A stretch of 64,000 nucleotides of DNA from a virus: positions 1-64,000 of the IMG/VR virus record IMGVR_UViG_3300024324_000416. One strand, written 5' to 3'. Positions 10,696 to 49,296 of the stretch are shown in pieces. Made by a program: the position numbers and the translations under genes. The notes below the pieces were generated by a model. That model saw nothing but the letters and a program-made list of their open reading frames with translations. It was not told the DNA's origin and did not search any database. Each line of letters begins with the position of its first letter. Within the stretch, counting starts at the first letter, position 1.

Positions 10696-11975
10696 TGAAA
10701 TCCACGAACCCTGACGGTGGTGTCTGGGTAAAAGTACACCCCGACAATACGGGTGGTGAACTGCCTGGTGTTGTGAGTATGTATGCAAAAACAGCAGATG
10801 GATGGGTTGAGGTTGGTTCAAGTAATGTTGCAGCAGAAGGTGCACCACCCGCACCTGTTATTACAAATCCCGAAGGTGGAAGTATTATTAAGTTTACCTC
10901 TGGTGGAAATGGTGCTGCTGGTGTTACCCTTGCTTATGGAGCAACCATTGAACCTCAAGGTGCAACTGTTGAGGTAGATCAAGACAATCTTGAAGTAATA
11001 GTTTCAGGCTCAATTCCTGATACTGACTACGTTGTTACTGTTTATGGTGTAAACGTTGCTGGTAAGGGTGAAGATGCAAAGACAAATCCTTTCCAACTGA
11101 ACTACAACGTTGCCACGGGAGGCAGCGAAAACATCGTGAATAACTACAACGGCACAAGCGAGAAGTGGAAGGTGCATACGTTCACAGGTAACGACACTTT
11201 CACGGTCGAAAGCAGCGTCAACAACTACCGCTACGTTGTTGTCGCTGGCGGTGGCGGAGCAGGCGGCGGCTCAGGCAATAACGCTCAAGGCTGGACCGCT
11301 GGAGGCGGTGGCTCTGGCGGAGTCTTGAACAGAAACGATCTTGTTCTGCCGCTAGGTGACATTCCTATCACTGTTGGCGGTGGCGGTGGAGGCGCAGGAC
11401 ACTCTGATTCTGGGTCGTCACCAAGAGGCGGTCAGGGCGGTGTATCGAAGATTGACACCTACGTTGTCACAACAGGTGGCGGCGGCGGTAATCATTCTGG
11501 CGGCTCTGGCGGCTCTGGCGGCGGTGGAGGTTTCGCAGGCGGTAATGGTGGCGGCGGAGGCGGCACGCTGGGTCAGGGCACAAACGGCACAGGTGGAAAC
11601 GGGCAAAGCCAACCAGCAGGGACAGGTGGCGGTGCAGGCGACGGCACATCAACAGCCCACACCACCGCAGGGCGCATAGACAACATCACGGGAACCGATG
11701 TGACCTACGCAAATACTTACGGAGCCATCGGTGGTGGCGGACCTGGCAACACACGCTACCAACTGACGGGAGCAAGCGGGAATAGCGGCATTGTTGTTAT
11801 CGCTTACCAGATTGGTATGAGCACCACAAGAGAAATCGAACAAGCACAGGCAGAACAAGCAGCCCGTGCCGCTGGTGTAGAAGAAGGCATCGAACAAGGA
11901 AAGCAAGAAGGATACGCACAAGCACAAGAAGAAGCAAAAGTGTGGTATAATGAACTTAACTTTAAAAAGGAGTGA
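10695..11975 (+). CDS. Glycine-rich tail adhesin with Fn3-like and helical parts
   Basis: A 426-residue protein: N-terminal attachment motif (GGVWVKV, YAKTADGW), a fibronectin-III-like domain (about 50-130), a polyglycine-rich tip (about 175-375 with many GGGG runs), and a charged helical tail (about 377-426, AQAEQAARAAG, EEAKVWYNELNFKKE). Base composition changes sharply near 11100 and returns near 11850, so the tip looks swapped in. The final codons K-V-W-Y-N encode the late-type promoter at 11941 inside the reading frame. ATG overlaps the previous stop (TGATG). Confidence 0.7.
   Translation: MKSTNPDGGVWVKVHPDNTGGELPGVVSMYAKTADGWVEVGSSNVAAEGAPPAPVITNPEGGSIIKFTSGGNGAAGVTLAYGATIEPQGATVEVDQDNLEVIVSGSIPDTDYVVTVYGVNVAGKGEDAKTNPFQLNYNVATGGSENIVNNYNGTSEKWKVHTFTGNDTFTVESSVNNYRYVVVAGGGGAGGGSGNNAQGWTAGGGGSGGVLNRNDLVLPLGDIPITVGGGGGGAGHSDSGSSPRGGQGGVSKIDTYVVTTGGGGGNHSGGSGGSGGGGGFAGGNGGGGGGTLGQGTNGTGGNGQSQPAGTGGGAGDGTSTAHTTAGRIDNITGTDVTYANTYGAIGGGGPGNTRYQLTGASGNSGIVVIAYQIGMSTTREIEQAQAEQAARAAGVEEGIEQGKQEGYAQAQEEAKVWYNELNFKKE
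11941..11951 (+). promoter_or_regulatory. Late-type promoter inside an ORF (exact TGTGGTATAAT)
   Basis: -10 at 11946-11951, embedded in the last coding stretch of the adhesin at 10695 where it encodes V-W-Y-N. -35 position CACAAG, no match. It gives a leader with AAAAAGGAGTG before ATG 11981. Confidence 0.75.
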
Positions 11976-11980
11976 TTGCA

Positions 11981-12112
11981 ATGGGTTGGGTAAGTCAAAC
12001 ATCTTACATTTATGGATGGGCCAACGGCGGTAAGCCAGGTCCAGGCACAACAGTAGCATCTGCGCCTATTTCTGCTCCTTCTGTAGAAAACGACACTACT
12101 GACGAAGACTAA
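11981..12112 (+). CDS. MGWVSQTSYIY microprotein, copy B (43 aa)
   Basis: Starts at ATG 11981, 6 nt after AAAGGAGTG. It shares MGWVSQTSYIY and the W-NGGK-GPG continuation with the protein at 7802, then has its own Ala/Ser/Pro segment and an acidic tail (DTTDED). The conservation of the first 17 codons at protein level, with different third bases in several codons (GTT/GTA, TCT/AGT), argues for selection on the peptide. Function unknown. Confidence 0.7.
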   Translation: MGWVSQTSYIYGWANGGKPGPGTTVASAPISAPSVENDTTDED

Positions 12113-12118
12113 ACTTCC

Positions 12119-12129
12119 TGTGGTATAAT
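12119..12129 (+). promoter_or_regulatory. Late-type promoter, leaderless (exact TGTGGTATAAT)
   Basis: -10 at 12124-12129 and ATG at 12136, only 6 nt between them, so transcription should begin at or within a base or two of the A of ATG. The -35 position reads GACGAA, no match. Confidence 0.85.
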
Positions 12130-12135
12130 AGCCAT

Positions 12136-14058
12136 ATGTCTAATTCATCTGGTCTTTGGTTCTATAATTTAGCACAGTCAAATACGGCATACACTAGAGC
12201 ACTAAACTCATCTATTCTTCTTGCAGATGCAACAAAGCCAAGTCAAACATTTTCATCCTTGCGTAATGTTGGAAGCGGCGGGGAAGAGTACGATCTATTC
12301 TTTGATAGTGTTGATGTAAATATGACATTTAATACAGATAATGTATATTTCTCAGGTAAGGAATATGCTAAGTTCTCCTTGTTAAAAACAAAATTTGAAG
12401 ACACAAACTCCATTGACTTTGTTATTAATGTTGATTTAGATCCAGATCAGGTAGGATTGCAAACTCTTGTTTCTAGGGATGAGTCTTTTACTATCTTTTT
12501 AGATGATGGTATTCCTGTTTTTGAATCTACCTCTACCCGCTGGCTTATCACAGATACAGAGAATGATAGGATTAGAGAGCGTAAGGCTGTTTTCGTATAT
12601 AATGCTACAGAGGCTTTTACAGGATCTTGGTTGCGTGTGCGCTCTTCTTGGAGTGAAACAGGAACGGTAGTAGAGTTTTTCCAGAGTGATGATGGTGTTT
12701 CATACAGTCAAATAGGAACCAATATTACATCTAACGCTCTTGATATGTATTTTGGAGGTAGCACAATTACTGTTGCTGCTGATACAGGAGGCTTTAATTC
12801 TACCGCTGGAAAGTTCTACAAGTTTGAAGTAACTATGAACAATCCAGTATTGACTATCAATTTCGCTGATGCAGAGCCAGATAATCCTTGGTTTTATACA
12901 GAAGGAAACCTTGTAGAGTTTGTGCTACAAAGCAAAGAATCTACTGATCCTGTTTATTTAGAAAAGAGAGATGAGCCATATGTATTCTTCCCAAAGGGGT
13001 TTGGCAGAACATTCTCTAATGCCAAAATACCACAATCTTTTTATGAGTCAGACACTTGCGACATTCGTGTAGCATTTATTATTCCAGAGCAAGCAAGCAA
13101 CTGGAACGCAGATTTAATAAGTTTAAACGCTTTTAAGTTGTGTATTGATGATGGTGCTGTTTGTGTCCAGGGAGATGCCTATATGAAGGGAGACCAAACT
13201 TTTGATGACCTAGGGTATAAAAGGGGAGAGCCACTAGGGGCAAGACTTTTCTACAATAAGAAGACAAAGATGTTGAGTCTTTTTGTGGGGAAGCCATCAG
13301 AATCCGCATCAGATTTGGAAAGTTACATTTGGGTGGGTATAGGCAATAAAAAGTTAGAAAGGGCATCACAGGTATATGATACTATCACTCTTGGATCTAG
13401 AAACACAACAAGGGAAAACGACTTAATCATTCTTAATGCTAGTTTGTCTGGTGTAGATATTGATAAAGAAAATGTTGTTAATGAGATCAAGGATTCGTTC
13501 ACTACGGTGGTTGATAGAAGCATGATTCTACTAGACAAGTCATCTAAACTAAAGTCTAAGATATCTGACGCAGACTTTGACAATGGTTTCTCTCTTATGG
13601 TAGATCTCAAGAGCGTAAGCCAACCAACATATTTACCAGAAATTAGCAAAATGGAAAATGGTGTGGGTTGGTCTCTAGGAATAAGTGAAACCATGACTCC
13701 TGTCTTGATTGTTTCAGATGGTAACAAAACGGTAACGGTAAGGGGCAGCAAATTACAAGAAGGAGAAAACGTTTTGTCCGTAGTATTGGACAGAGAAAAC
13801 GAGGTCGCAACCCTTTACAATAATGGATTAAAATACGGTATGGGTTCCTTGGAAGGTGTGGGAAGCATAGCAAACAATAGCAAACTGTTTATTGGGGATA
13901 ATGATTTTGAGTTGTATAACGTTGGAATGTGGGACTACATGCTAACCGATGAAGAGGTTAAGGGCATGAGCCAGCATCTAAGGAGTATGACCAACTACGC
14001 CAATAATGCAGAGTTTGGACTATGGCATGTTGGTATCCCAGACCTAACTGTGGTATAA
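12136..14058 (+). CDS. LamG-like minor tail/fibre protein
   Basis: A 640-residue beta-rich protein without enzyme motifs. The C-terminal third (about 470-620) reads like a concanavalin/LamG jelly roll (WSLGISETMTPVLIVSDG, LSVVLDRENEVATLYNNG, KLFIGDNDFELYNVGMWDY); the middle and N-terminal parts may hold further copies. LamG domains in phage tails usually bind glycans. The gene has no SD and starts 6 nt after a -10 box. Its stop codon is the TAA inside the next promoter (T-V-V-stop encoded by ACTGTGGTATAA). Confidence 0.7.
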   Translation: MSNSSGLWFYNLAQSNTAYTRALNSSILLADATKPSQTFSSLRNVGSGGEEYDLFFDSVDVNMTFNTDNVYFSGKEYAKFSLLKTKFEDTNSIDFVINVDLDPDQVGLQTLVSRDESFTIFLDDGIPVFESTSTRWLITDTENDRIRERKAVFVYNATEAFTGSWLRVRSSWSETGTVVEFFQSDDGVSYSQIGTNITSNALDMYFGGSTITVAADTGGFNSTAGKFYKFEVTMNNPVLTINFADAEPDNPWFYTEGNLVEFVLQSKESTDPVYLEKRDEPYVFFPKGFGRTFSNAKIPQSFYESDTCDIRVAFIIPEQASNWNADLISLNAFKLCIDDGAVCVQGDAYMKGDQTFDDLGYKRGEPLGARLFYNKKTKMLSLFVGKPSESASDLESYIWVGIGNKKLERASQVYDTITLGSRNTTRENDLIILNASLSGVDIDKENVVNEIKDSFTTVVDRSMILLDKSSKLKSKISDADFDNGFSLMVDLKSVSQPTYLPEISKMENGVGWSLGISETMTPVLIVSDGNKTVTVRGSKLQEGENVLSVVLDRENEVATLYNNGLKYGMGSLEGVGSIANNSKLFIGDNDFELYNVGMWDYMLTDEEVKGMSQHLRSMTNYANNAEFGLWHVGIPDLTVV

Positions 14059-14059
14059 T
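14049..14059 (+). promoter_or_regulatory. Late-type promoter overlapping a stop codon
   Basis: Exact TGTGGTATAAT, -10 at 14054-14059. The TAA at 14056-14058 ends the upstream ORF and ATG 14066 follows 6 nt after the -10, so one stretch of about 20 bp is stop, promoter and leaderless start. A weak TTGGTA lies 17 bp upstream of the -10. Confidence 0.85.
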
Positions 14060-14065
14060 AATACT

Positions 14066-14827
14066 ATGCCTGAAAATTATCCAGACCCAGTTGCAGGTCC
14101 ATTCATCATCCCCTCACTAGGGGACATTGCTGATGCCCCAGAGGGCTTCAAAGAGTTTGCCGACTCTATTCCTATTGGTGGAAATATCCGCATTATTGAT
14201 GCCACATCCACACCATTTACTATCACCCAGGCACATTCGGGTTCCCTACTGTCTTTTAAGGTTGCAGACGCATCCATTAAGTTTGATCCAGCACTTACAG
14301 AAGGTTTCAACTGTGGTTTGATCTCAACTGCTGGTGCTATTTATGTTGATCCCGCAGAAACCTTCCAAGGTGATAGTCAGGTATCTATTTACACTATGGG
14401 CTCTGTCGTAAAGGTAGCAGGAGATGTTATTGTTTCTAGGCCACAGGATCTATCTGAGGTTTCAGCAAACCTAAAGGTAAATAAATATGAAGCGGCAATA
14501 GTCACTATTGACGCTCAAAACGATAAGAATGGTGTTCTAACACTTAATACACAAGATAATGCAACATGGTCGGTTCCTGGGGGGTATGGTATTGGTGACG
14601 TTGTAAATATTTGTAATGCCTCTGATACTGATATGACTGTTGTTGCTGGTGATGGAGAGTCTGTAAAGTTCTGGTATGGAGCAACAACCATTGAGTCTAA
14701 TGGATCACCAGATAGATTCACATTGGCTACAAATTCAACCGCTACCCTTGTTCGCATTCCCAAGACGGGAAGTACGTCTACTGACTTTGCTTTAGGTGCA
14801 ATTGCTAGTGCTGTGAGTTGGTTATAA
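14066..14827 (+). CDS. Putative fibre/baseplate accessory protein
   Basis: A 253-residue protein. Near the N-terminus it has IADAPEGFKEFADSIPIGG, closely matched by the protein at 16928 (QAFRQFADTIPEDFPIG), and then TEGFNCGLISTAGAIYV, matched there by TEGLDVGFQVSVDP. The rest is beta-rich with GDVVNICNASDTDMTVV-like strands typical of phage tip domains. It has no SD and is leaderless behind the 14049 promoter. The repeated module probably marks one set of subunits at the same tail position. Confidence 0.55.
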   Translation: MPENYPDPVAGPFIIPSLGDIADAPEGFKEFADSIPIGGNIRIIDATSTPFTITQAHSGSLLSFKVADASIKFDPALTEGFNCGLISTAGAIYVDPAETFQGDSQVSIYTMGSVVKVAGDVIVSRPQDLSEVSANLKVNKYEAAIVTIDAQNDKNGVLTLNTQDNATWSVPGGYGIGDVVNICNASDTDMTVVAGDGESVKFWYGATTIESNGSPDRFTLATNSTATLVRIPKTGSTSTDFALGAIASAVSWL

Positions 14828-16927
14828 ATGGCTATTCTTGGAATGCATTATACGCAAGATCCAACAGACCCCGAAGCATATAAACACACCGACTGGGTTC
14901 GTATGTGGGATAACGAGGTTTATTGGAATCGCATTCACTATGGCGTAGATAAATACAGTTGGGGAAGACTTGATTACTTAGTAAATGATTTGTATGCTGG
15001 AAAAGAAATTGTGTATTGCATCGGTGGAACACCACAATGGTTAGCACAAAATCCCAGTCAGGGAGACTACAAGCCATGGATGGGTGCTGGGTCAAACTCA
15101 TTACCTTCTGACACTAGCGGCGGTACAGACTCTTACGGAGACTCATTCAGCAAAGGTACTGACGAATGGAACAAGTTCTGTTATGTACTTGCTGATAGAT
15201 ACAAGGGAAGAATAAAGGCTTATGAGTTTTGGAATGAGCCACAGTTGCTTGGCTACATGGCACCCTGGGATTCAACTACCCGTAATCTAATGGCTAAGAT
15301 GATTAAGCGAGGGGCAGGAACCTTAAAATCAGTAGATTCAAATGCCATTACTATTGGGCCAAGCATTTTTGTGGGAACCTCTGGGCGTGTGACACGAGCC
15401 ACAAAGATCGTTGAGGCTTTGGCTGGAACACAGAGTAGTTACGGCCCTTGGGAAAATCTAGATGCCATGGCCTGCCATATCTATCCAGCAGAAGGGGATG
15501 GGAAAACAGAATGGCGGCGGCAGTTAGATGAAAACAGAAGCATTATTTCAAGCAACGGTGGCCCCAGTAAAACATGGATCACAGAAACAAACTACAACCT
15601 TCTTGGCGAAGTCCTTCCAGAAGACGGAACCACATACAACCTAGTTTCTAACACATATGATGAGGCAGGTGGAAAGTTCATCTTCTGGTACGCATACGAT
15701 AGAACAGCAGACCTAGGTGGTTTGGATATCCGTGCCCCACAAGACGGAAATAGTTTTGAAGCGTTCAACGCTATGGTTGAAAAGACAAAGGGAATCACAT
15801 ACCCTCCATTATTGGATGTTACCATTACCTCATCTCACACAACATGGACGGGTAGCAATCCAACGGACTCCGCAACAGTAAGTTTCACCATATCAAATAA
15901 CGGTTTGAATGGTGTTGAGGTATCTCACAGCAAGGGTGGACTTGAGCCTGCTTTTGGATCTGTTCCCATTACCGCTGGGGGCTCCACTACATACGAAGCC
16001 GAAATAACAGAAGATCCACCATCTAGTACATACACAGTAACATTCACCATTACTGATGGAATCAATACAGAGGACTACACCGTATCTGAGGTGCTAGATC
16101 CAAAGCCCTCCCCCCTTCCACAGATTTCTCTTTCCGTAAACGGTATCGAAGGAGACTGGACTGGATCAGAAGCAAATGACTCCAAGACCTTCACCTTCAA
16201 CGTACAGAATACATCTGATAGCAATAGCCTTACTGTCACTCATAGTAGAGGTGGTCTAACTCCATCTTCCTTGTCTTTGAGTGTGGGCTCATCTGCAACC
16301 TTTACAGAAAGCATTACATCTCGTCCAGCAAGCGGTATCTATGAAGTTACTTTTACAGGTACCGCAAGTGATTCAAGAACAAAGCAATATTACGAGTCAT
16401 TCAACGTAACAGAAAAGCCCCCTCCCCCACCACCAGACGAGGGTGACGAAAGTCATCAACTAACTTGTAGTTGGAAGAATGATAGGAATAAGGAAACTCT
16501 GGAAACAGAGCATACCGTTGATGGGCCTGCCAGATACGCAGAAGATAACTGTACTGAATACTTCCAAGAGCAGTACCCAGAAAAATGGGTAGGTGGAGAT
16601 GATTGGTTCTTAACATCATACGAGTGGGACGATGATGGTGCAGAGAATGTTAATCCCCCAGGAGGAAGCGGCAACAAGGCATGGCCTATTGTTGATCTTG
16701 CAGAAGTACTTCTAAAAGATGGAGACAGCATTAACGAAAATCACTATAGGCAATTGGTTGTAATGGAAGATGGTGGAGTCCTAAACATTCCAGAAGAAAT
16801 GGATATAGGGTTCCAGTTCGCTCTGGTGTGCTATAATTATCCTGTTACGTTGGTAACGGGCAAGGTAGATAATACAGAAAGCACCGTACCAACCAACACA
16901 CTAGCAATTGTAAGTAAGGTGATTTAA
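14828..16927 (+). CDS. TIM-barrel glycoside hydrolase with tandem Ig-like domains
   Basis: A 699-residue protein. Residues 1-330 are a paralogue of the glycosidase at 3496, with probable acid/base Glu137 (EFWNEPQ) and nucleophile Glu253 (TWITETNYN). Two related Ig-like/CARDB-like repeats follow, about 335-430 (TTWTGSNPTDSATVSF) and 435-535 (GDWTGSEANDSKTFTF). A C-terminal part (about 550-699) ends with MDIGFQFALVCYNYPV, which recalls the EG--VGFQ module of 14066 and 16928. Probably a virion enzyme that trims host surface glycans while bound to the fibre complex. It starts 3 nt after the previous stop. Confidence 0.8.
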   Translation: MAILGMHYTQDPTDPEAYKHTDWVRMWDNEVYWNRIHYGVDKYSWGRLDYLVNDLYAGKEIVYCIGGTPQWLAQNPSQGDYKPWMGAGSNSLPSDTSGGTDSYGDSFSKGTDEWNKFCYVLADRYKGRIKAYEFWNEPQLLGYMAPWDSTTRNLMAKMIKRGAGTLKSVDSNAITIGPSIFVGTSGRVTRATKIVEALAGTQSSYGPWENLDAMACHIYPAEGDGKTEWRRQLDENRSIISSNGGPSKTWITETNYNLLGEVLPEDGTTYNLVSNTYDEAGGKFIFWYAYDRTADLGGLDIRAPQDGNSFEAFNAMVEKTKGITYPPLLDVTITSSHTTWTGSNPTDSATVSFTISNNGLNGVEVSHSKGGLEPAFGSVPITAGGSTTYEAEITEDPPSSTYTVTFTITDGINTEDYTVSEVLDPKPSPLPQISLSVNGIEGDWTGSEANDSKTFTFNVQNTSDSNSLTVTHSRGGLTPSSLSLSVGSSATFTESITSRPASGIYEVTFTGTASDSRTKQYYESFNVTEKPPPPPPDEGDESHQLTCSWKNDRNKETLETEHTVDGPARYAEDNCTEYFQEQYPEKWVGGDDWFLTSYEWDDDGAENVNPPGGSGNKAWPIVDLAEVLLKDGDSINENHYRQLVVMEDGGVLNIPEEMDIGFQFALVCYNYPVTLVTGKVDNTESTVPTNTLAIVSKVI
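16827..16837 (+). promoter_or_regulatory. Possible internal extended -10 promoter
   Basis: TGTGCTATAAT inside the end of the glycosidase gene, 90 nt before ATG 16928. It differs from the late consensus at one base. It may be chance. Confidence 0.35.
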
Positions 16928-17347
16928 ATGTCTGATCCCATCTTAACTGATACATACACCACTACCCCCTTGCCCCCAATGACTGTGGGTTGGGACGCAC
17001 AGGTTCCTTCATATGACGCAAGGGTGGATATGCCTCAGGCATTTCGTCAGTTTGCTGATACTATCCCAGAAGACTTCCCTATTGGAACCATGGAGCAGTC
17101 TGGCTTACCGTTTGTTATTGATGAAACACACTTACAAAAGATTATTATTGCAACAAACCCTACAGTTGAGCAATGGAATATTACTGAGGGGCTAGACGTT
17201 GGTTTTCAAGTATCAGTTGATCCAACTACGGCAAGCATCAACATCGTGATTAATGGCGGTGTAGAGCAGATGTTCCCAGGAAGTCAAATAACTGCCCTGA
17301 GCATCTTAACAAAAATCTCTGAAACAGAATGGATATTGAGTCAATAA
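16928..17347 (+). CDS. Small fibre/baseplate accessory protein
   Basis: A 139-residue protein sharing the FADTIP...TEGLDVGFQ module with 14066. It is essentially that module alone, preceded by a Thr/Pro-rich N-terminus (TTTPLPPMTVGWDAQVP). No enzyme motif. It follows the glycosidase directly and overlaps the next ATG at its stop (TAATG). Likely a structural or adaptor subunit. Confidence 0.55.
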   Translation: MSDPILTDTYTTTPLPPMTVGWDAQVPSYDARVDMPQAFRQFADTIPEDFPIGTMEQSGLPFVIDETHLQKIIIATNPTVEQWNITEGLDVGFQVSVDPTTASINIVINGGVEQMFPGSQITALSILTKISETEWILSQ

Positions 17348-17511
17348 TGTTATCACAAGCATGGTGGCTACTAGGCCCATCAACACTAAACAGGGACGAT
17401 AGGTATTACGGACGAGAGCCAGATGACTTTGTGCCATTCGTTCTTGACTATTCTTCAATTGGTGGCGATGACCAACTGAAAGAGTATTTCGAACTACCAG
17501 AAAGTCCCTAA
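17347..17511 (+). CDS. Hypothetical protein (54 aa)
   Basis: ATG 17347 overlaps the previous stop by one base (TAATG); a longer start at 17329 would overlap the coding end. It has an aromatic N-terminus (AWWLLGPST) and an acidic body. No recognised family. Coupled translation suggests it is expressed with its neighbours. Confidence 0.55.
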   Translation: MLSQAWWLLGPSTLNRDDRYYGREPDDFVPFVLDYSSIGGDDQLKEYFELPESP

Positions 17512-17513
17512 TA

Positions 17514-17702
17514 ATGACGAAGCCTTGGAACCTACTAAGAAAAAAGAACTACACCACACAGGATGTAGCCGATGAGCGTCTTGATATATGTAGGATATGT
17601 CCAGAGTTTATCAAATCTACCAAGCAATGTAAGAAATGCGGGTGTTTTATGGTAGCCAAAACAAAACTAACAAAATCCACATGCCCTCTGGGTAAGTGGT
17701 AA
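17514..17702 (+). CDS. Small zinc-ribbon protein (62 aa)
   Basis: A Cys-rich basic protein: CRICPEF, QCKKCGCFM and CPLGKW give at least five cysteines in CxxC-type pairs, a small phage zinc-ribbon pattern that commonly lies near tail or fibre genes. The start is 3 nt after the previous stop. It could stabilise a structural complex or bind nucleic acid; the role is unknown. It is the first of several zinc microproteins in the window. Confidence 0.7.
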   Translation: MTKPWNLLRKKNYTTQDVADERLDICRICPEFIKSTKQCKKCGCFMVAKTKLTKSTCPLGKW

Positions 17703-17703
17703 G

Positions 17704-17714
17704 TGTGGTATAAT
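17704..17714 (+). promoter_or_regulatory. Late-type promoter, leaderless (exact TGTGGTATAAT)
   Basis: -10 at 17709-17714, then 6 nt to ATG 17721; begins 2 nt after the upstream stop. -35 position CTCTGG, no match. Confidence 0.85.
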
Positions 17715-17720
17715 ACCAAC

Positions 17721-18710
17721 ATGGCTATTAGATATCAAGAATGGGAAGATGGCGACAAACTATACGCATCCGCCCTAAACGAAGCGGTAGCAAATGGTGT
17801 TGTCCAAGTAGATCTTGTTTCTGAGATTGCTACTGTTTTTTCTAATCACCTAGAGGTAAACGTTGTATACTGCTTGGAGGACAATCTCACCTATGGTCGT
17901 GGACAAACAGAGTTTGAGCCACTACAGGTTTCTAAGGAGACAATCGTTCTCAGCGGAGAAGATGAGCAAGGTACCGCCACCACAACAAAAACAAGGTATG
18001 ATTCGGGTGGTAGCACATATGATAACTACACATTCAAGGGAACAGACACATTTTTGGTAAAGGCACCAGGAGCAGTTGTTGACATTCTTGTAACTTCTGG
18101 TGGAGGCCCAGGTGGAACCCAACACGCATCACACGGCGCAGGCGGCGGTGGAGGGGGAGGAACTAGGTACATTACAAATGTTACTCTAACACCAGGAACC
18201 TATTCCGTTTCTATTGGGAGTGGAACAGCGTCAGCATTTTATAGGACACAGGGCCATGGTCAGGGTGGAAGGTCTGTGTTTAAGAATGAAACAACAAATA
18301 TAGTTTTGTATAATCCCACAGGTGGAGGCCCAGGTGGGCACACATACAGCACCCAGGGGCAGGGAGAGAAGTGGAGTGGTCTTAACGGAGGATCTGGTGG
18401 CGGTGCTTCCGATGGAGGAGGAGTCGGGGCAGGTGTAGCAGGAGAGGGCCAAAACGGTGGTGGACTGACTGGTGGAGGCGCAGGCCCAACCTACGGTCAA
18501 GGTGGACAGGGAACAGGTCTTACTCTTACTAACTGGAAGGAATCTGGCAACTACTATGTTGCTCACACCAACAACAGAAACCATGCAAATGGCGCAGCAT
18601 ATTCGGGAGCAGGTGGATCATCTGGTGTTGGGGGAAACAATCACGGTGCGCATAACGGTGGAAAGTCTGGGGGATCTGGTATTATTATGATGAGGAAGAA
18701 GATAAAATGA
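17721..18710 (+). CDS. Glycine-rich tail adhesin
   Basis: A 329-residue protein. The N-terminal about 75 residues (DKLYASALNEAV...NVVYCLEDNLTYGRG) match the whole protein at 19192 (DKLKPSEINILANN...NVVYSKEDYTAFRR), so this is a shared attachment module. The remainder is a polyglycine-rich tip (GGGGGGG, GGGASDGGG, GGQGTG runs) ending IIMMRKKIK, the same fold class as the adhesins at 9838 and 10695. The start is ATG 17721 six nt after the -10; a longer in-frame GTG at 17703 would precede the likely mRNA start. Confidence 0.7.
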   Translation: MAIRYQEWEDGDKLYASALNEAVANGVVQVDLVSEIATVFSNHLEVNVVYCLEDNLTYGRGQTEFEPLQVSKETIVLSGEDEQGTATTTKTRYDSGGSTYDNYTFKGTDTFLVKAPGAVVDILVTSGGGPGGTQHASHGAGGGGGGGTRYITNVTLTPGTYSVSIGSGTASAFYRTQGHGQGGRSVFKNETTNIVLYNPTGGGPGGHTYSTQGQGEKWSGLNGGSGGGASDGGGVGAGVAGEGQNGGGLTGGGAGPTYGQGGQGTGLTLTNWKESGNYYVAHTNNRNHANGAAYSGAGGSSGVGGNNHGAHNGGKSGGSGIIMMRKKIK

Positions 18711-19192
18711 TCTGCGGAATAGCACAGTTAGATGACTCAAACATTGTAGTTAATGTAATTACAAGTGATTCAGACAACTGGGGACATTTCGATACCTACG
18801 ATGAAACAAATCAGGCTATGCGTGATTGGTATGCAAATCTTCTACCTGATATGGATGTAAGCAAACTTTATCTTTTGTTTACTGGTGAACTTTGTGCTAT
18901 TAATGATATGTATGATGACAATCCTCTCTCCCCCGCAAGATTTAAGGAAAGCAATCCTTACGCAGATCCAATGCCTGAGGATGTTGGAATGTATGATGAA
19001 GATTATGGTCGCTGGTGGCCCTATGTTCCTGATGAAAATGGTGGATTTGTTTGGGGTAAGGAATATTTCACAAAAGATTTTCCAAGGGTTAGGAACACAT
19101 CAAGCACAACTACTGTATATTCCACAGATTCTTTTGATGGGGAGTTAGGTCCAGCAGACAGAAACTATGATGGTCCTATTGCGTGGTTATAA
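18707..19192 (+). CDS. Hypothetical fibre-associated protein
   Basis: A 161-residue acidic protein rich in Asp/Tyr/Trp; the N-terminus (CGIAQLDDSNIVVNVITSD) looks like a beta-strand module found in phage tail-fibre assembly or tip proteins. ATGA overlap with the adhesin stop suggests coupled translation and a partner role such as a fibre chaperone or tip subunit. Not confidently recognised. Confidence 0.5.
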   Translation: MICGIAQLDDSNIVVNVITSDSDNWGHFDTYDETNQAMRDWYANLLPDMDVSKLYLLFTGELCAINDMYDDNPLSPARFKESNPYADPMPEDVGMYDEDYGRWWPYVPDENGGFVWGKEYFTKDFPRVRNTSSTTTVYSTDSFDGELGPADRNYDGPIAWL

Positions 19193-19422
19193 TGGCTGAG
19201 AGATTTTGGATTGCAGAGGTACAGGATAAACTAAAGCCAAGCGAGATAAACATTCTTGCCAACAATACTTTTATGCAGGTAGATTCTGTAAATGATCTTA
19301 CATCTCCGCTAATTGAAAATGTAAATGTTGTTTATTCCAAAGAAGACTACACAGCATTCCGTAGGCTTGCGCCAGGTATCGGCAAAGACAAGTGGGAAAC
19401 CACAGGTGCTATTTCAGCATAA
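19192..19422 (+). CDS. Stand-alone fibre attachment module (76 aa)
   Basis: A small protein homologous to the N-terminal domain of the adhesin at 17721: DKL--S-LN near the start, then NVVYSKEDYTAFRRL and a Trp near the end. It lacks any tip domain, so it may be a remnant of a fibre whose tip was lost or a capping subunit. ATG overlaps the previous stop (TAATG). Confidence 0.6.
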   Translation: MAERFWIAEVQDKLKPSEINILANNTFMQVDSVNDLTSPLIENVNVVYSKEDYTAFRRLAPGIGKDKWETTGAISA

Positions 19423-19461
19423 CTAAGTTTATTAAATTGTTATAGGGTAATCGCTCAACCA

Positions 19462-19490
19462 TTGACTTACCCTCAAACGTATGATATAAT
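19462..19490 (+). promoter_or_regulatory. Early-type promoter, leaderless
   Basis: TTGACT (19462-19467), 17 bp spacer, TATAAT (19485-19490), then 7 nt to ATG 19498. It is the only promoter with a good -35 box between 103 and 50260, and it heads the DUF2945-RNR pair. Confidence 0.85.
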
Positions 19491-19497
19491 ATTCCAC

Positions 19498-20088
19498 ATG
19501 GCAGAAGGACACACCCCCACAGACTCAATGGCAGGAAACGCTCGTCGTGGTCTTGCACTCCGTAAGGAATATGGTCGTGGAGGAACTGCCGTAGGCGTGG
19601 CTCGTGCCCGTGATATTTCTAACAAAGCATCTCTATCAAACTCAACTGTAATGCGTATGCATTCATTCTTCTCCCGTCATCGGGTAGATAAGAAGGGGAA
19701 GGGCTGGACAGCAGGATCAGAAGGATACCCATCCAACGGTCTTATTGCTTGGCTCCTTTGGGGTGGCGATAGTGGTGCAGCATGGGCACAGTCAAAGCGT
19801 AATGCTATCAAGGGATCACAGAAGGCATTGTGGTCAGGTAGCGCATTCTCATTCCAAAAGGCAGAGTCAGTCAAAGTAGGACAGATGGTGTCTTGGAACT
19901 CATCAGGTGGTCGGGCATCGGGTAAGGTTCTTCGTGTTATCAACAACGGGTCTTACAGCGTTCCTAACTCTTCTTTGACTATTACAGGAACACCTGATTC
20001 CCCTGCCGCTGCTATTCGTGTCTATCGTGATGGCGAACCAACCGACACAATCGTCGGGCACAAAGTAAAATCTTTAACACCAAAGTAA
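19498..20088 (+). CDS. Phage protein with C-terminal DUF2945/HVA1-like domain
   Basis: A 196-residue protein. The N-terminal part (about 10-115) is basic and helical with RMHSFFSRH and IAWLLWGGDSGAAWAQ, a pattern seen in small phage proteins. The C-terminal about 70 residues (VKVGQMVSWNSSGGRASGKV...VGHKVKSLTPK) match the DUF2945/HVA1 Tudor-like fold. It could bind nucleic acid or protein; the job is not known. It is leaderless behind an early-type promoter and precedes the RNR gene, so both may act in early metabolism although they sit within the structural region. Confidence 0.7.
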   Translation: MAEGHTPTDSMAGNARRGLALRKEYGRGGTAVGVARARDISNKASLSNSTVMRMHSFFSRHRVDKKGKGWTAGSEGYPSNGLIAWLLWGGDSGAAWAQSKRNAIKGSQKALWSGSAFSFQKAESVKVGQMVSWNSSGGRASGKVLRVINNGSYSVPNSSLTITGTPDSPAAAIRVYRDGEPTDTIVGHKVKSLTPK

Positions 20089-20127
20089 GTAAAACCAACA
20101 ATACAATTTATAAGGAGTAATACATTT

Positions 20128-22182
20128 ATGTTTAGTTTCCGCTTAACCGACGACTTTATTAATCAGTATAAGGATCGTGAGGTTCCATTTGGCTTTCGTG
20201 ACGCAGGCACAAACGCACTAGGAGAGATCACCTTTATCCGCACTTACTCTCGTAAGAAAGAGGACGGTACAAAAGAGAAGTGGTGGGAAGTATGCCAACG
20301 TGTTATCAATGGCATGTACACCATTCAGAAGGATCATTGCAAGGCTAACCGACTACCTTGGAATGACCGCAAGGCACATGCTTCCGCACAGGAAGCCTTT
20401 GATCGTATGTTCAACTTGAAGTGGACACCTCCTGGTCGTGGTCTATGGATGATGGGGGCAGATATGGTTATGGAGAATCGCAATAGTGCTGCTCTCCAAA
20501 ACTGTGCTTTCGTAAGCACACGAGATATCGACAAGTACGATCCAGGTGCTTTGTTTGCTTGGACAATGGATGCCTTGATGCTTGGCGTTGGTGTTGGTTT
20601 TGATACTTTGGGGGCAGAGAAGGAAATGGATATCTACCCCACAACAGAAGAGGTAAATATCTACACAATTCCTGATAGCCGTGAAGGATGGGTAGAGAGT
20701 GTTCGCTTGCTTATCAATTCTTTCCTTACACCAAAAAAGCCACGACAAGAGTTTAACTACGAATTGATTCGTCCCTACGGATCTCCCATCAAGGGCTTTG
20801 GAGGAACAGCATCAGGCCCACAGCCACTTATCACCATGCACGAGACAATCCGCAGGGTAGTGGGTAGCAGAGTAGGCGAAAAACTAGACAGCAGGGCCGT
20901 GGTAGATATTGTTAACCTTATTGGTACTTGCGTAGTGGCTGGAAATGTTAGACGCTCTGCGACCCTAGCATTAGGTAAAACTAACGATTCTTTATTTGCT
21001 AATCTTAAAAATGCAGAAGAGTTCCCAGAACGTAACTCATTCGACCCAGAGAATCCAGGTTGGGCTTGGATGAGCAACAACTCTATTGCAGCGGAGGTGG
21101 GTACAAAATATGAGGACTATGTTGACCTTATTACGGACAATGGTGAGCCAGGTTTCATTTGGCTTGACGTATCTCGCAACTACGGACGTACAGGAGATGC
21201 ACCAGATGGCAAAGATGCACGGGTTATGGGATTCAACCCATGTGCGGAACAACCACTAGAGTCATACGAACTGTGTACACTAGTTGAGGTTCACATGAAC
21301 CAGCACGAGAGCAAGGAAGACTTCCTACGCACTCTCAAGTTTGCTTACCTTTACGGCAAGACTGTAACCTTGCTACCTACTCATTGGCAGCAGACAAACG
21401 CTATCATGCAGCGTAACCGTCGTATCGGTACATCACTCACAGGTCTTGCTTCCTTTGCCGATAGCAAGGGTCTTCCCACACTACGGGAATGGCAAGATGA
21501 GGGATACAATCGTGTGCGTGAATGTGATACACAATACTCTGAGTGGCTTTGTATCCGTGAGTCTGTGCGTGCTACAACCGTAAAGCCCTCTGGCTCTGTG
21601 TCTATCCTATCAGGTGAAACACCAGGAGTCCATTGGGGGCCAGGAGGCAAGCACTTCCTACGGGCCATTCGTTTTAGCGACCAAGACCCAATGCTTCCAC
21701 TATTCAAGGCAGCAGGGTACAAGGTAGAAAAAGATATAGTATCAGCAAATACAAAGGTGGTTTACTTCCCAGTAAAGTCAGACCACGAGCGTAGCGAGAA
21801 GGATGTTTCTCTGTTTGAGAAGATTGGTCTTGCTGCGACTACACAGAAGTATTGGAGTGATAATGGAGTATCTGTCACGTTATCGTTTGATGCAGAAACA
21901 GAAAAGAAACATATCGCACCCTCGCTCCACATGTATGAGGGACAACTTAAGGCAGTTTCGTTCTTGCCTATGTCGAATAGTACCTACCCCCAACAACCGT
22001 ATACACAAATAACAGAAGAGGAATACAATAAGTATGTTGGTAAGATTATGAAGATTGACTTTACTCCCATTTATGAGGGAGAGGAGTCATTCGACGCAGA
22101 GGGAGATCGCTACTGCACTACCGATGTTTGCGAGATGCCACAGATTATCACATCTGATATTGCCGATACAGTTGTGGTATAA
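20128..22182 (+). CDS. Adenosylcobalamin-dependent ribonucleoside-triphosphate reductase (class II)
   Basis: A 684-residue monomeric-type class II RNR, which reduces NTPs to dNTPs using B12 to form a thiyl radical. Catalytic cysteines are visible: Cys126 (LQNCAFVS), Cys372 with Glu374 (NPCAEQ), Cys383 (ELCTLVE), and a C-terminal pair Cys663/Cys668 (YCTTDVC) that would shuttle electrons from thioredoxin. AAGGAG lies 9 nt before ATG. The length is slightly below the 730-740 usual for the Lactobacillus-type enzyme. The ORF ends V-V-V-stop with the stop inside the next promoter. It supplies dNTPs for replication. Its place among tail-fibre genes, with its own early-type promoter, suggests an inserted metabolic module. 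Confidence 0.95.
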   Translation: MFSFRLTDDFINQYKDREVPFGFRDAGTNALGEITFIRTYSRKKEDGTKEKWWEVCQRVINGMYTIQKDHCKANRLPWNDRKAHASAQEAFDRMFNLKWTPPGRGLWMMGADMVMENRNSAALQNCAFVSTRDIDKYDPGALFAWTMDALMLGVGVGFDTLGAEKEMDIYPTTEEVNIYTIPDSREGWVESVRLLINSFLTPKKPRQEFNYELIRPYGSPIKGFGGTASGPQPLITMHETIRRVVGSRVGEKLDSRAVVDIVNLIGTCVVAGNVRRSATLALGKTNDSLFANLKNAEEFPERNSFDPENPGWAWMSNNSIAAEVGTKYEDYVDLITDNGEPGFIWLDVSRNYGRTGDAPDGKDARVMGFNPCAEQPLESYELCTLVEVHMNQHESKEDFLRTLKFAYLYGKTVTLLPTHWQQTNAIMQRNRRIGTSLTGLASFADSKGLPTLREWQDEGYNRVRECDTQYSEWLCIRESVRATTVKPSGSVSILSGETPGVHWGPGGKHFLRAIRFSDQDPMLPLFKAAGYKVEKDIVSANTKVVYFPVKSDHERSEKDVSLFEKIGLAATTQKYWSDNGVSVTLSFDAETEKKHIAPSLHMYEGQLKAVSFLPMSNSTYPQQPYTQITEEEYNKYVGKIMKIDFTPIYEGEESFDAEGDRYCTTDVCEMPQIITSDIADTVVV

Positions 22183-22183
22183 T
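22173..22183 (+). promoter_or_regulatory. Late-type promoter overlapping the RNR stop codon
   Basis: Exact TGTGGTATAAT, -10 at 22178-22183; the RNR stop TAA is 22180-22182. -35 position TGATAT, no match. It points into a 70-nt gap that ends in a hairpin and a second promoter. Confidence 0.8.
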
Positions 22184-22235
22184 AAATTTAGGAGACAGAA
22201 CCTTCAACTGTGGTTAGGATAGGTCTGCTGCAGAT

Positions 22236-22254
22236 TGCCCCCCAAGAGGGGGCA
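22236..22254 (+). terminator. G/C hairpin between two promoters
   Basis: TGCCCCC (22236-22242) pairs with GGGGGCA (22248-22254), loop CAAGA. No U-tract follows. It would end a transcript of about 65 nt from the 22173 promoter, or insulate the 22257 promoter from read-through. Confidence 0.55.
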
Positions 22255-22256
22255 TC

Positions 22257-22267
22257 TGTGGTATAAT
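22257..22267 (+). promoter_or_regulatory. Late-type promoter, leaderless (exact TGTGGTATAAT)
   Basis: -10 at 22262-22267, 8 nt before ATG 22276; starts 3 nt after the hairpin. -35 position is a C-run, no match. Confidence 0.85.
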
Positions 22268-22275
22268 GAACTATT

Positions 22276-25155
22276 ATGGCTAGAGACATTAATCTATATG
22301 CAGCAAGACTTTTTGGAGAGCACCCAATTGCTACATGGACTTTAGATGATATCACCTCTAACGCCTCTTTGCAGTATTTCTCTGACGACTTCCCAGCAAT
22401 TGTTGCCGACGGCTATACAACAGGTTTGCCTCTTGTTTATGGTTCTAGTCAATCAGTTGGGGTAACATCAGACAGCACGGGTATCATTATTGAAACAGAA
22501 GATCGGTTATGGTCACAAGTAAAGACATACTCAAATACAGGATTTGTAGTAGATTGGAAGTTCTGGTACAACGAGAACATTACATTTCAGGAATTGCTAG
22601 AGGAAGAGCGTTTCGTAATTGAGTTTGGTGAGGCAGGAATTGAGCATAACGGTTACGGCATGTTCACCAACGGTGGCAAATACAACAAATACACATATGA
22701 GTTTTGGACCCGCATTAATCCAAGGGTAGATGTTCCTCGTAAGATCTGGGGCACACTAACTACATTGGACGGCATCTGGGTCAAAGACAATTACATAACT
22801 TTAGCAGTAGGAAACAAGTACAAGTCTTTTGCTATCGAAAATTGGTTTAGGCCAATGCTCTTGAATGTAACATACACATCAAACCAGGCAAGGCTTCTTA
22901 TAAACGGACAAGAGGTTATCTCTCTTGATCTTAATCCAGAAGAGTTTAACTTTGATCCTATTAACGATGAGGTGACTGGTGAAGGTCTGCTTGGATTCAT
23001 GGGATACCCAGAGATTGATTTGTTTGAGGTTGATTGCTTCTCTATCTTCCCCTACATTGTTCCTGATGAAGTATGTAAACGTAGGTTTGTATGGGGTCAA
23101 GGTCTATCCGACGCAGCATCATTCTCCACATTCTTCGAAAACTCTACCACATACATTGACTGGTCGTTTGCAAATTACGCAACTTCCGCTATCTACCCAG
23201 ATGTTTTCAATTGGGACACAGGATACATTAGCGGATTGGTTACAAGCCGTGGATATGTAAAGACACCAAACTACAAACTTCCAGAAATTTTTATCCAGGG
23301 TAGAAAGTTAGAAAACTTATACAAAGAAAACCTATTCAACAACTCAACAGAAACAGTAAGCCCTGGATTCTCCTTCAAGCCTGAATTTGACTGGACGCAA
23401 AACTCATACTTCTACTTTGATAGCATTGAGAAACTAGAGTCTCCCCCGCAGATTATCTATGGAGTCTTTTCTAAGCATTGGTACGAAACTAGCACCGACC
23501 CTCAACCACTTTTCAGATTTGTGAAACGGTATACCGATGATGTTATCGACATTGTGATACAGGGAAACAACGTTCACTATATATATAACGGTGATGTAAA
23601 GTATTCTTTCCCTGTGCAGGATGATGTTCCCTTTACTGTGGGTCTTGATTTGAATGCGATTGTAAAAGAGAGTGTTGAGTTTAAGAACTTCCTTACAAGC
23701 CTTGCTGATGTTGAGGTGTTTGTTGGTGGTGATGGAGAAAGCACATTCTCTGGTTTAATTTATCGTGTTGGTCTTAGTGATACAGCAATGGTTGCTCGTG
23801 AAGAACTGGTGCAATATTTCCCAAGCGGCATTGCTAATCCTTATCACAACATGGCTACGTCAAAGGGTACCTATGTCATTAGACCCTTCATAAGATATGG
23901 AAACTTCTATCTTGACATTGAGGCAGGAGGATTCTGGGAGGATGCAATTCCTCTATCTTACTTTGGTAGGAACTTCCAAAAAGATGATGGAACCTACGAA
24001 TCAAAACTTGACTTGTTGCAACTAAACATCGGGTACGACGGATTGTACAAGATTAGAGATAATGGCTATGATGTGGGTGGTAGTGAAATGAAGTGCTACA
24101 TAACTTTCCAACCATTAGAGGCAAAGAATAATAAGTTGCTAAGAGAGTTTACATCAACACAAAGCCTACCTAAAAACAGAATAATTGATGTAAGTGGAAT
24201 GACAGCCCCAGATCTTGCTATTACAAAATTTGAATGGATAAATGGTACAGTAGTTGTGCCTCCACAAAATTACGATTCTTGGAAAATAGTTGTACATTTT
24301 GATGTTTATGCAGAAGCCGTAATATCTTCTCCATTCTCTGTAAAACAACTTTCTATGTCCTCGCAGGCGTACAAGGATGAGGCAGAGGTTGGAACTAGGT
24401 TCGGGAACAAACTATCATCAACAGACAACTTTGCTATATACAAAGAGAATACACCATATCTATATCTAACAAAAGACAGCGGCATAGAGCCACTAGACGG
24501 CCCCGTTAATACGCCAATCAACCCTAACGGTAATTTCCCATATTTGGTTGGTAACCTTAATATGTTTATTAAGCCCAATATCCTTATGGATACCGAAAAC
24601 ACCCTGTTCTCTATTGTATCTCGTAACGGAGTAATGGATATAAAGCACAACGGTACTGGTTGGGTGTTGCGTAGAAATGATCTTCCCATTGAGTATGTTG
24701 CCCTATATCAGAATGGTGAAGAGGTTACAGAGTTTACATTCGATGTAGATAAGTGGACAATGGTGGGCGTGGAGTTTGGTGAACCACTTGACTTCTCTGT
24801 CTCTACCTTATATAAGATTATTTTAAATGAGGGGGCAGTCTATCAAAACATCTCTGTGTCAGCACTATCAGAAACACAGGTAGAGAGCACCGCTATCGTT
24901 AGGCTTTGGGAAGGTGTAAGGATTCAGACTTGGGGAGACTGGGTTAATGACCCATCTGTTGAAACCTTTGCAGATCTCGTTTCTTCACGAGCATACCTAC
25001 AGTACCCCGTTGATCCAACACAGATTTATAAGATATTTACAGGTGGAAATACCACCAGCGTAGGCTCAGAAGATCCACCACTCAAGGTAGGGGAAATGAA
25101 CACAACCATGGCTACTGGCGTTGAGTGGAAAACATTTGATAGAAGACCTTCATAA
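22276..25155 (+). CDS. Large LamG-like tail protein
   Basis: A 959-residue beta-rich protein. The start (HPIATWTLDD) is typical of LamG/concanavalin modules in phage minor tail proteins, and the C-terminal region (about 760-860: LFSIVSRNGVMDIKHNGTGW, DVDKWTMVGVEFGE) looks like another. Repeated units of the pattern WY--FSPQ are absent and no catalytic motif is seen. It probably binds glycans or forms part of a large fibre. It has no SD and is leaderless. It precedes the portal, an unusual place for a tail protein. Confidence 0.65.
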   Translation: MARDINLYAARLFGEHPIATWTLDDITSNASLQYFSDDFPAIVADGYTTGLPLVYGSSQSVGVTSDSTGIIIETEDRLWSQVKTYSNTGFVVDWKFWYNENITFQELLEEERFVIEFGEAGIEHNGYGMFTNGGKYNKYTYEFWTRINPRVDVPRKIWGTLTTLDGIWVKDNYITLAVGNKYKSFAIENWFRPMLLNVTYTSNQARLLINGQEVISLDLNPEEFNFDPINDEVTGEGLLGFMGYPEIDLFEVDCFSIFPYIVPDEVCKRRFVWGQGLSDAASFSTFFENSTTYIDWSFANYATSAIYPDVFNWDTGYISGLVTSRGYVKTPNYKLPEIFIQGRKLENLYKENLFNNSTETVSPGFSFKPEFDWTQNSYFYFDSIEKLESPPQIIYGVFSKHWYETSTDPQPLFRFVKRYTDDVIDIVIQGNNVHYIYNGDVKYSFPVQDDVPFTVGLDLNAIVKESVEFKNFLTSLADVEVFVGGDGESTFSGLIYRVGLSDTAMVAREELVQYFPSGIANPYHNMATSKGTYVIRPFIRYGNFYLDIEAGGFWEDAIPLSYFGRNFQKDDGTYESKLDLLQLNIGYDGLYKIRDNGYDVGGSEMKCYITFQPLEAKNNKLLREFTSTQSLPKNRIIDVSGMTAPDLAITKFEWINGTVVVPPQNYDSWKIVVHFDVYAEAVISSPFSVKQLSMSSQAYKDEAEVGTRFGNKLSSTDNFAIYKENTPYLYLTKDSGIEPLDGPVNTPINPNGNFPYLVGNLNMFIKPNILMDTENTLFSIVSRNGVMDIKHNGTGWVLRRNDLPIEYVALYQNGEEVTEFTFDVDKWTMVGVEFGEPLDFSVSTLYKIILNEGAVYQNISVSALSETQVESTAIVRLWEGVRIQTWGDWVNDPSVETFADLVSSRAYLQYPVDPTQIYKIFTGGNTTSVGSEDPPLKVGEMNTTMATGVEWKTFDRRPS

Positions 25156-25187
25156 TCTGGTCTTGTTCCGTCACGCAAACTATAACT

Positions 25188-25198
25188 TGTGGTATAAT
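25188..25198 (+). promoter_or_regulatory. Late-type promoter, leaderless (exact TGTGGTATAAT)
   Basis: -10 at 25193-25198. An ATG at 25199 would precede the expected mRNA start; ATG 25205, 6 nt after the -10, fits the leaderless pattern. -35 position GTCACG, no match. It heads the portal unit. Confidence 0.85.
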
Positions 25199-25204
25199 AT
25201 GGTT

Positions 25205-25564
25205 ATGTCAAATAAAAGGAAAGCACTAAAGAAACCACGAGTAACTGTAGTAGACGAGAATCCAGGTTGGGGTATTTACGCTTGGAAGAAGGCAGATGGA
25301 AGTTTGTTTATGGATGAAGATCATAACCTACTTAACATTCCATCCCGACAATACGATATGGACAAGATGGCTCAGATTACCAATGCCGCTGCCCATTACG
25401 GTGAGCCAGAGGGCAGGCCATACTTTATTCCTGGTATCCAACGAGCCACAGATGAAGAGTACACAGAACAGCGTGAAAGAATGAAGTCAGGGCTACTACC
25501 AACCATGAATGACTTCAACGCAGTTACAGACGCAAAGAAGGCGGCAGGAATACAAGATGGCTAA
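25205..25564 (+). CDS. Conserved-looking protein before portal (119 aa)
   Basis: A basic N-terminus (NKRKALKKPRVTVV) is followed by GWGIYAWKKADGSLFMDEDHN, YDMDKMAQITNAAAHYG and an acidic C-terminus. No family recognised. The stop overlaps the portal start by 8 nt, so translation is probably coupled; a head-related accessory or packaging partner is possible. Start chosen by the leaderless pattern. Confidence 0.6.
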   Translation: MSNKRKALKKPRVTVVDENPGWGIYAWKKADGSLFMDEDHNLLNIPSRQYDMDKMAQITNAAAHYGEPEGRPYFIPGIQRATDEEYTEQRERMKSGLLPTMNDFNAVTDAKKAAGIQDG

Positions 25565-27113: not shown

Positions 27114-27152
27114 TGTTAAAATTTTAACAAAAAAATTAAAACGTTACAAAAA

Positions 27153-27163
27153 TGTGATATAAT
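27153..27163 (+). promoter_or_regulatory. Late-type promoter variant, near-leaderless
   Basis: TGTGATATAAT (one change from consensus), -10 at 27158-27163, 10 nt before ATG 27174. It lies in an A/T-rich 60-nt gap; -35 position ATTAAA, no match. Confidence 0.75.
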
Positions 27164-27173
27164 AGGGTACACT

Positions 27174-28385: not shown

Positions 28386-28419
28386 ATTACAGAAAAAAAA
28401 TCAGGAGGTGAATAGAATT

Positions 28420-29760: not shown

Positions 29761-29777
29761 TTCATATGCGCTATGTT

Positions 29778-29801
29778 GGGGGAGGGCTACGGCTCTCCCC
29801 C
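29778..29801 (+). terminator. Strong hairpin with UACG tetraloop after the capsid gene
   Basis: GGGGGAGGGC (29778-29787) pairs with GCTCTCCCCC (29792-29801) around TACG closed by C-G, an extra-stable UNCG-type loop. Only two T follow, so it is a weak-U terminator or an mRNA 3-prime end protector for the abundant capsid message. A late promoter starts 11 nt later. Confidence 0.75.
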
Positions 29802-29811
29802 TTCAAGCATT

Positions 29812-29822
29812 TGTGGTATAAT
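29812..29822 (+). promoter_or_regulatory. Late-type promoter (exact TGTGGTATAAT)
   Basis: -10 at 29817-29822; -35 position TCTCCC lies in the terminator stem. Leader of about 22 nt with AAGGAG before ATG 29851. Confidence 0.8.
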
Positions 29823-29850
29823 AGTGTCAATAGTAGTGAAGGAGACAACT

Positions 29851-30333
29851 ATGAATTTTAAAGATATGCCAATTCGGGAGTTGCGGGAATACGCAAAGAC
29901 CAACGGTATTAAGTTGCAGAGCGCAACGAAAAAGGCAGACATTGTTGCTATTCTAGAAGCAACAGAGGCACCATCAGAAGAGATCACTTTTGATGCCGAG
30001 CCTGAGACCCCTAGTGTCATAACAGCACCTACAGAGGATGCTCGTGCAGCACGAGAGCAAGAAGAAATTGATATCCGTCTAGATGAACTCGTCGTAAATG
30101 CTAACAAGCCAACCGCACAAGACGACAAGGTTTGTATTTACTCTGAGCGTCGTTACTCCTCTTCTAAGTTGGGTAAACTAGATCTAGGGTACAACATCGT
30201 AAAGAAAGATCTTGCAGTAATGTGGGTTCGACTTCCAGATGTTCGTGCAGCATCTAAGGATGAACTTGCTAGGGCACAGGCTTCTGGTATTAAGCCAGGG
30301 CAACTGGTAGGCCCAAAGGGACGTAGAATGTAA
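29851..30333 (+). CDS. Head protein with SAP/Rho-N-like domain
   Basis: A 160-residue protein. The first about 35 residues (MPIRELREYAKTNGIKLQSATKKADIVAIL) match the helix-extended-helix of SAP/LEM/Rho N-terminal domains, a nucleic-acid-binding motif found in phage capsid-region proteins. An acidic linker follows, then a compact domain (about 90-150, CIYSERRYSSSKLGKLDLGYNIV). It may decorate the head or link DNA to the connector. The start is ATG 29851 with AAGGAG 6 nt upstream. Its stop overlaps the next ATG (TAATG). Confidence 0.65.
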   Translation: MNFKDMPIRELREYAKTNGIKLQSATKKADIVAILEATEAPSEEITFDAEPETPSVITAPTEDARAAREQEEIDIRLDELVVNANKPTAQDDKVCIYSERRYSSSKLGKLDLGYNIVKKDLAVMWVRLPDVRAASKDELARAQASGIKPGQLVGPKGRRM

Positions 30334-34818: not shown

Positions 34819-34829
34819 TATGGTATAAT
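34819..34829 (+). promoter_or_regulatory. Late-type extended -10 promoter of the tape measure
   Basis: TATGGTATAAT, -10 at 34824-34829; -35 position CTTAGG, no match. The first ATG after it (34835, 5 nt later) opens a 5-codon ORF, not the tape measure. Confidence 0.8.
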
Positions 34830-34834
34830 GAACC

Positions 34835-34852
34835 ATGGAGATGCCTGAATAA
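34835..34852 (+). CDS. Five-codon leader ORF coupled to the tape measure
   Basis: ATG GAG ATG CCT GAA TAA (M-E-M-P-E) starts 5 nt after the -10 box, in the leaderless position, and its TAA overlaps the tape-measure ATG by one base (TAATG). The same overlap is used throughout the window. It may feed ribosomes to the tape-measure start by termination-reinitiation. GGAG within it could instead act as a distant SD. Confidence 0.45.
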   Translation: MEMPE

Positions 34853-49290: not shown

Positions 49291-49296
49291 AGGACT

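Follow-up and report, generated by a model that had tools for sequence, protein, structure and literature searches.

Our results indicate that about 15 genes of this virus very probably carry a -10 hexamer placed so that the mRNA would begin at or near the ATG, with neither a leader nor a Shine-Dalgarno (SD) sequence, and would be loaded in that form by the ribosomes of the host. The new parts are the conservation of this arrangement across a phage lineage and the repeated switching between leaderless and SD-led initiation at one gene. The window, by which we mean the whole stretch of 64,000 nucleotides that was analysed, covers positions 1-64000 of a virus record 78,439 bases long, the remainder of which was also read (locus L006).

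According to the mechanism we propose, a -10 hexamer ending 6-7 nt (8-10 nt at two sites) before the ATG of ~15 genes would have RNA polymerase initiate at the first base of the ATG or a few nucleotides away, because the hexamer ends so close to the start codon. The resulting mRNA would lack a 5' leader as well as an SD sequence, and its 5'-terminal AUG would be bound directly by the ribosomes of the host, which is probably an actinobacterium, in the way known for leaderless mRNAs in mycobacteria. Observed directly are the sequence, the spacing, the missing SD and the retention of the spacing in distant relatives; the transcription start, the leaderless translation and the host we infer. Some of the messages would additionally exist in a leadered form, produced by transcription reading through from promoters further upstream.

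The preliminary description had listed eleven starts within the window, and upon re-measurement its TATAAT-to-ATG gaps proved exact at 11/11 sites. At eight of the window sites (gap 6-7 nt) the -10-like hexamer begins 12-13 nt before the ATG. The sites are as follows:

12119-12138, plus strand: extended -10 TGTGG-TATAAT, hexamer at 12124-12129, gap 6 nt, ATG 12136 of a 640-aa gene (12136-14058) of tail-fibre type with a weak LamG-like match.
14049-14068, plus strand: TGTGG-TATAAT, gap 6 nt, ATG 14066 of a 253-aa gene.
17704-17723, plus strand: TGTGG-TATAAT, gap 6 nt, ATG 17721 of a glycine-rich, tail-fibre-like gene of 329 aa.
19462-19500, plus strand: TTGACT-N17-TATAAT (early-type promoter), gap 7 nt, ATG 19498 of a 196-aa gene.
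22257-22278, plus strand: TGTGG-TATAAT, gap 8 nt (short leader possible), ATG 22276 of a 959-aa gene.
25188-25207, plus strand: TGTGG-TATAAT, gap 6 nt, ATG 25205 of a phrog_9394 gene (119 aa) directly before the portal gene.
27153-27176, plus strand: TGTGA-TATAAT, gap 10 nt (leader of ~3 nt expected), ATG 27174 of the head maturation protease (403 aa).
34819-34854, plus strand: TATGG-TATAAT, gap 5 nt, 5-codon mini-ORF ATGGAGATGCCTGAATAA at 34835-34852.
49280-49299, plus strand: TGTGG-TATAAT, gap 6 nt, ATG 49297 of a 147-aa gene.
52126-52146, plus strand: GATGG-TATAAT, gap 7 nt, ATG 52144 of a phrog_17515 gene (107 aa) before the primase.
61975-62012, plus strand: TTGACA-N17-TATAAT (early-type promoter), gap 6 nt, ATG 62010 of a 52-aa ORF.

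The large size attributed to these genes holds for about half of them and fails for the rest. Further sites lie past the window in the same record, at 66883, 70073 and 68089 (the last with TATAGT), together with short ORFs at 69663 and 77764. The B12-dependent (class II) ribonucleotide reductase gene at 20128-22182 is SD-led.

The claim that none of these starts has an SD sequence is borne out by the predicted pairing with the anti-SD. The mean duplex energy is -1.0 kcal/mol at the 11 leaderless-type starts, as compared to -2.2 at random positions and -6.5 for 75 other genes. The last value should be interpreted with some caution, being partly circular because SD strength helped to call the starts of those genes, whereas the leaderless value is not circular; the presence of the -10 inside the tested stretch also leaves less room for an SD in the leaderless set. 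All 11 leaderless-type starts use ATG, whereas GTG opens 13/75 of the other genes.

Evolutionary conservation of the -10/ATG spacing supports the leaderless reading beyond what a single sequence could offer. We looked for a -10 lying 5-10 nt before the start codon in orthologs drawn from three Streptomyces phages and from viral contigs whose head protease or DNA polymerase is related to that of this phage; the counts refer to related sequences and not to independent events. The best-conserved leaderless site is 25205, where the -10 is kept in 34/36 orthologs at 6-7 nt. At 52144 it is kept at 5-8 nt in 23/26 orthologs (34-47% amino acid identity), and at the 27174 protease in 36/40, mostly 9 nt from the start. 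The gene at 22276 has few relatives beyond near-identical contigs; its -10 is kept in 3/3 orthologs, and relatives L131 and L133 display a gap of 6 nt. Retention is partial at 49297 (14/29 orthologs). The arrangement is found in 0/3 orthologs of 19498, all of them distant, and in only 2/43 orthologs of 62010, where it is not conserved. As a control, a -10 at 5-10 nt occurred in 32/628 orthologs across 24 gene families. Within the groups compared, the hexamer is nearly invariant and the other upstream columns are 33-55% identical, but the hexamer itself selected the aligned rows, so the ortholog counts are the real test. No ortholog of 12136 beyond near-identical contigs, and none of 14066, was found among the related viral contigs; these two sites, 17721 and the mini-ORF at 34835 have no informative orthologs. 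Taken together, the spacing appears to be under selection at 25205, 52144, 27174 and 22276, partly so at 49297, and not at 19498 or 62010.

The same counts bear on how close to the ATG transcription would begin. Instead of being leaderless, the messages could carry leaders of 2-10 nt, with ribosomes making use of a very short leader. This is consistent with the wider gaps, 8-10 nt, of 22276 and 27174, with the ~9 nt kept throughout the protease family, and with those SD-led orthologs of 49297 in which AGGAG starts about where transcription should begin. As a general account we regard it as somewhat improbable but deserving of real weight, given that 6-7 nt is the commonest spacing at most sites; for 22276 and 27174 themselves, leaders of 2-4 nt are probably the case.

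The gene at 49297 merits separate consideration. Among its orthologs, some have a leaderless start and others an AGGAG within a very short leader, and the protein tree of these orthologs requires four changes of state, at least three of them on well-supported branches, a count that is approximate for a short protein with some long branches. In the SD-led relatives (L237, L219, L227, L235, L254 and others) the distance from TATAAT to ATG is ~13-17 nt with AGGAG between them; consequently, their leader would be only ~8-10 nt and would start near the SD. The notion of one programme throughout does not withstand at least three switches between leaderless and SD-led states at this gene. Repeated switching at one gene does provide natural pairs in which the benefit of either mode of initiation could be studied.

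Leaderlessness could alternatively mark one temporal class, the late genes, as in phiYS40. The genome does contain two types of promoters. Left of 50 kb most TATAAT hexamers belong to an extended -10 (TGTGG, TATGG) without a -35, and right of 50 kb TTGACA or TTGACT at 16-18 nt from TATAAT is common. A -35 with at most one mismatch accompanies 2/30 hexamers on the left versus 11/20 on the right, and a TGTGG-like extension 18/30 versus 2/20. Examples of the -35/-10 type are found at 97, 50289, 60040, 61998 and 63183, and of the -35-less type at 12124, 22262, 25193 and 49285. From gene content we infer that the two classes may be called late and early. Seven window sites are located on the left, among the structural genes, behind extended -10 promoters without a -35, as a late class would have it. 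However, five leaderless starts (19498, 62010, 66883, 68089 and 70073) are preceded by TTGACA/TTGACT-N17 promoters, and there are many TGTGG promoters in front of SD-led genes. We consider a purely late class unlikely, and dropped it once leaderless starts had been found behind both promoter classes. The "systematic design" of the preliminary description accordingly holds as a lineage-wide arrangement and fails as a single programme, since leaderless and SD-led genes occur under both classes.

A sigma factor was also considered as the cause of the -35-less promoters. Coruscant HUN41_00097 (L296:19021-19530) is annotated as a putative sigma factor and has an ortholog in this record at 64208-64735, before the terminase large subunit. 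Profiles show no sigma domain and match only phrog_9507, a family with no assigned function, and the candidate was rejected on that ground.

The gene before the portal extends the observation to cultured phages. In 10/10 of those examined, eight Streptomyces phages (StarPlatinum, Muntaha, Tomas, Belfort, Mildred21, Evy, NootNoot and Coruscant) and two Rhodococcus phages (Weasels2 and Trina), a -10-like hexamer lies 6-7 nt before an in-frame ATG of this gene. The arrangement looks real and inherited, and not coincidental, because related cultured phages keep it, and since these phages infecting Streptomyces and Rhodococcus are in culture the leaderless claim is testable now. GenBank places the start of NootNoot gene 42 two codons before the leaderless ATG, and those of StarPlatinum gene 48 and Tomas gene 50 five codons after it, which shows how gene starts go wrong. 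Distance profiles peak at 6-7 nt in this phage, its contig relatives, NootNoot, Coruscant, Wakanda and phiYS40; for Coruscant the 6-7 nt class holds 11 sites, where the background is 0.30 per offset, and lambda has no such peak at this cut-off.

These phages also inform the suggestion that the promoters are real but merely boost transcript amount, translation proceeding mainly by reinitiation on longer read-through transcripts. Most leaderless-type genes do closely follow a gene on the same strand, and the -10 of 14066 overlaps the TAA stop of the preceding gene, with the ATG 8 nt beyond that stop. Reinitiation is nevertheless an improbable main route. The starts lack an SD, the 6-nt spacing has been kept, which translation from read-through messages would not require, and in several Streptomyces phages (e.g. 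Tomas, Evy, NootNoot and Coruscant) a terminator-like hairpin with a T run was recognized by eye just upstream of the pre-portal gene, a position that makes read-through a less likely origin of its message. In the present record a terminator scan of 11500-31400 performed no better than shuffles.

A further possibility is a deliberate programme, in which infection would shift the host ribosome pool to leaderless initiation, as proposed for phiYS40, and in which the genes retaining the arrangement, foremost the pre-portal gene, are those that need to be expressed after the shift. As a side case of this reading, the mini-ORF at 34835-34852 would be a natural leaderless two-cistron device passing ribosomes on to the tape-measure gene. 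We give the whole of this, the shift, its timing and the device taken jointly, little credence. The stop of the mini-ORF overlaps the ATG of the tape-measure gene (34852; 2495 aa) as TAATG, and the GGAG inside it may be the plain SD of that gene. The mini-ORF is absent in L134, the sole closer relative covering the site. No tape-measure relatives at moderate distance were found besides near-identical contigs. The 5-nt gap given in the preliminary description is exact, but the mini-ORF is a weak case and its status as a leaderless gene doubtful.

The number of sites exceeds what the abundance of the hexamer would produce. The 78,439-base record has 51 copies of TATAAT on the plus strand and 9 on the minus strand, and 12 plus-strand copies are followed, 5-10 nt downstream, by an ATG that begins an ORF of 50 codons or more. 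Circular shifts of the motif positions gave a mean of 2.4, and 1/20,000 reached 12, the shifts drawn including the near-zero one; at exactly 6 nt, where the distance profile of this phage peaks, 8 cases compare with 0.41 expected, a number likewise reached by 1/20,000 shifts. No minus-strand TATAAT lies 5-10 nt before such an ATG, other permutations of the same six letters gave at most 3 cases each, and the 12-base string TGTGGTATAATA occurs 8 times forward, with 0 in reverse and 0 for the mirror control. That a common hexamer falls near ATGs by accident, as its 51 coding-strand copies and the clearly irrelevant ones within genes might suggest, is hardly credible in view of the circular shifts, the permuted hexamers, the minus strand and the orthologs, whose counts refute chance at the conserved sites; a chance origin is possible for single sites that are not conserved.

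A scan of viral contigs for TGTGGTATAATNNNNNNATG returned at least 120 single matches, and among the matches listed half open an ORF of at least 60 codons, versus 20% of random ATGs. This suggests that the -10/ATG arrangement is wider than this lineage, and perhaps widespread in environmental phages. At other sites in contigs L007-L126, exact TATAAT was seen 29 times at 6 nt versus ~5 per offset, in contigs chosen for carrying the motif and hence no fair negative control.

A probable actinobacterial host is suggested by the nearest cultured relatives, the Streptomyces and Rhodococcus phages; a scan of genome contigs with the protease alignment gave weak matches only, from mixed phyla. More than 20% of actinobacterial genes are predicted to be leaderless, with TANNNT ~12 bp upstream (PMC3160421), and in mycobacteria a 5' ATG or GTG suffices for translation and nearly a quarter of transcripts are leaderless (PMC4633059). 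The leaderless share of ~15% of genes is ordinary for the likely host group. Mycobacterial leaderless transcripts were mapped by experiment, whereas those described here are predicted, with ATG at 11/11 starts and no GTG. The leaderless (TA-led) genes of Actinobacteria and Deinococcus-Thermus likewise combine TANNNT near the ATG with lack of an SD, and there too the initiation signal changes between orthologs (PMC3160421, PMC12340547); those genes are chromosomal, whereas ours are phage genes that include the one before the portal.

Among phages, Stanwilliamsviridae (the Streptomyces phages NootNoot, Coruscant and Wakanda) display the leaderless arrangement at matching genes and a similar order of genes (ribonucleotide reductase, portal, protease, capsid and tape measure; DnaB, primase, SSB, DnaE and RecA). 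They differ in that their genomes are 127-134 kb and the present record is 78 kb, with ~40-52% amino acid identity at the protease and DnaE, and no tRNAs were found in our window. Our literature search, which covered few subscription journals, turned up no publication about leaderless genes in Stanwilliamsviridae. The left part of the genome has the promoter class, extended -10 without -35, that is favoured by sigma remodelling through P23-45 gp39 or T4 AsiA (PMC7403470), a resemblance only, as no such protein was identified here.

Phage transcripts were described as often leaderless in the AR9 paper (PMC5312081), and the middle and late messages of Thermus phage phiYS40 are mostly leaderless (PMC3594737). 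Like our phage, phiYS40 has many leaderless-type genes and the same 6-7 nt peak in its sequence. In its programme, early promoters are of the -35/-10 type and later ones have a -10 only, leaderlessness is confined to middle and late messages, and IF2 rises and IF3 falls during infection. Here, in contrast, leaderless starts also stand behind -35/-10 promoters; the phage belongs to another lineage, and its host probably to another phylum. The literature searched contained no report of leaderless starts conserved throughout a phage lineage, although phiYS40 is a clear single precedent. Leaderless phage messages were thus already known from phiYS40, and what the present lineage adds is unusually good evidence that such starts are conserved.
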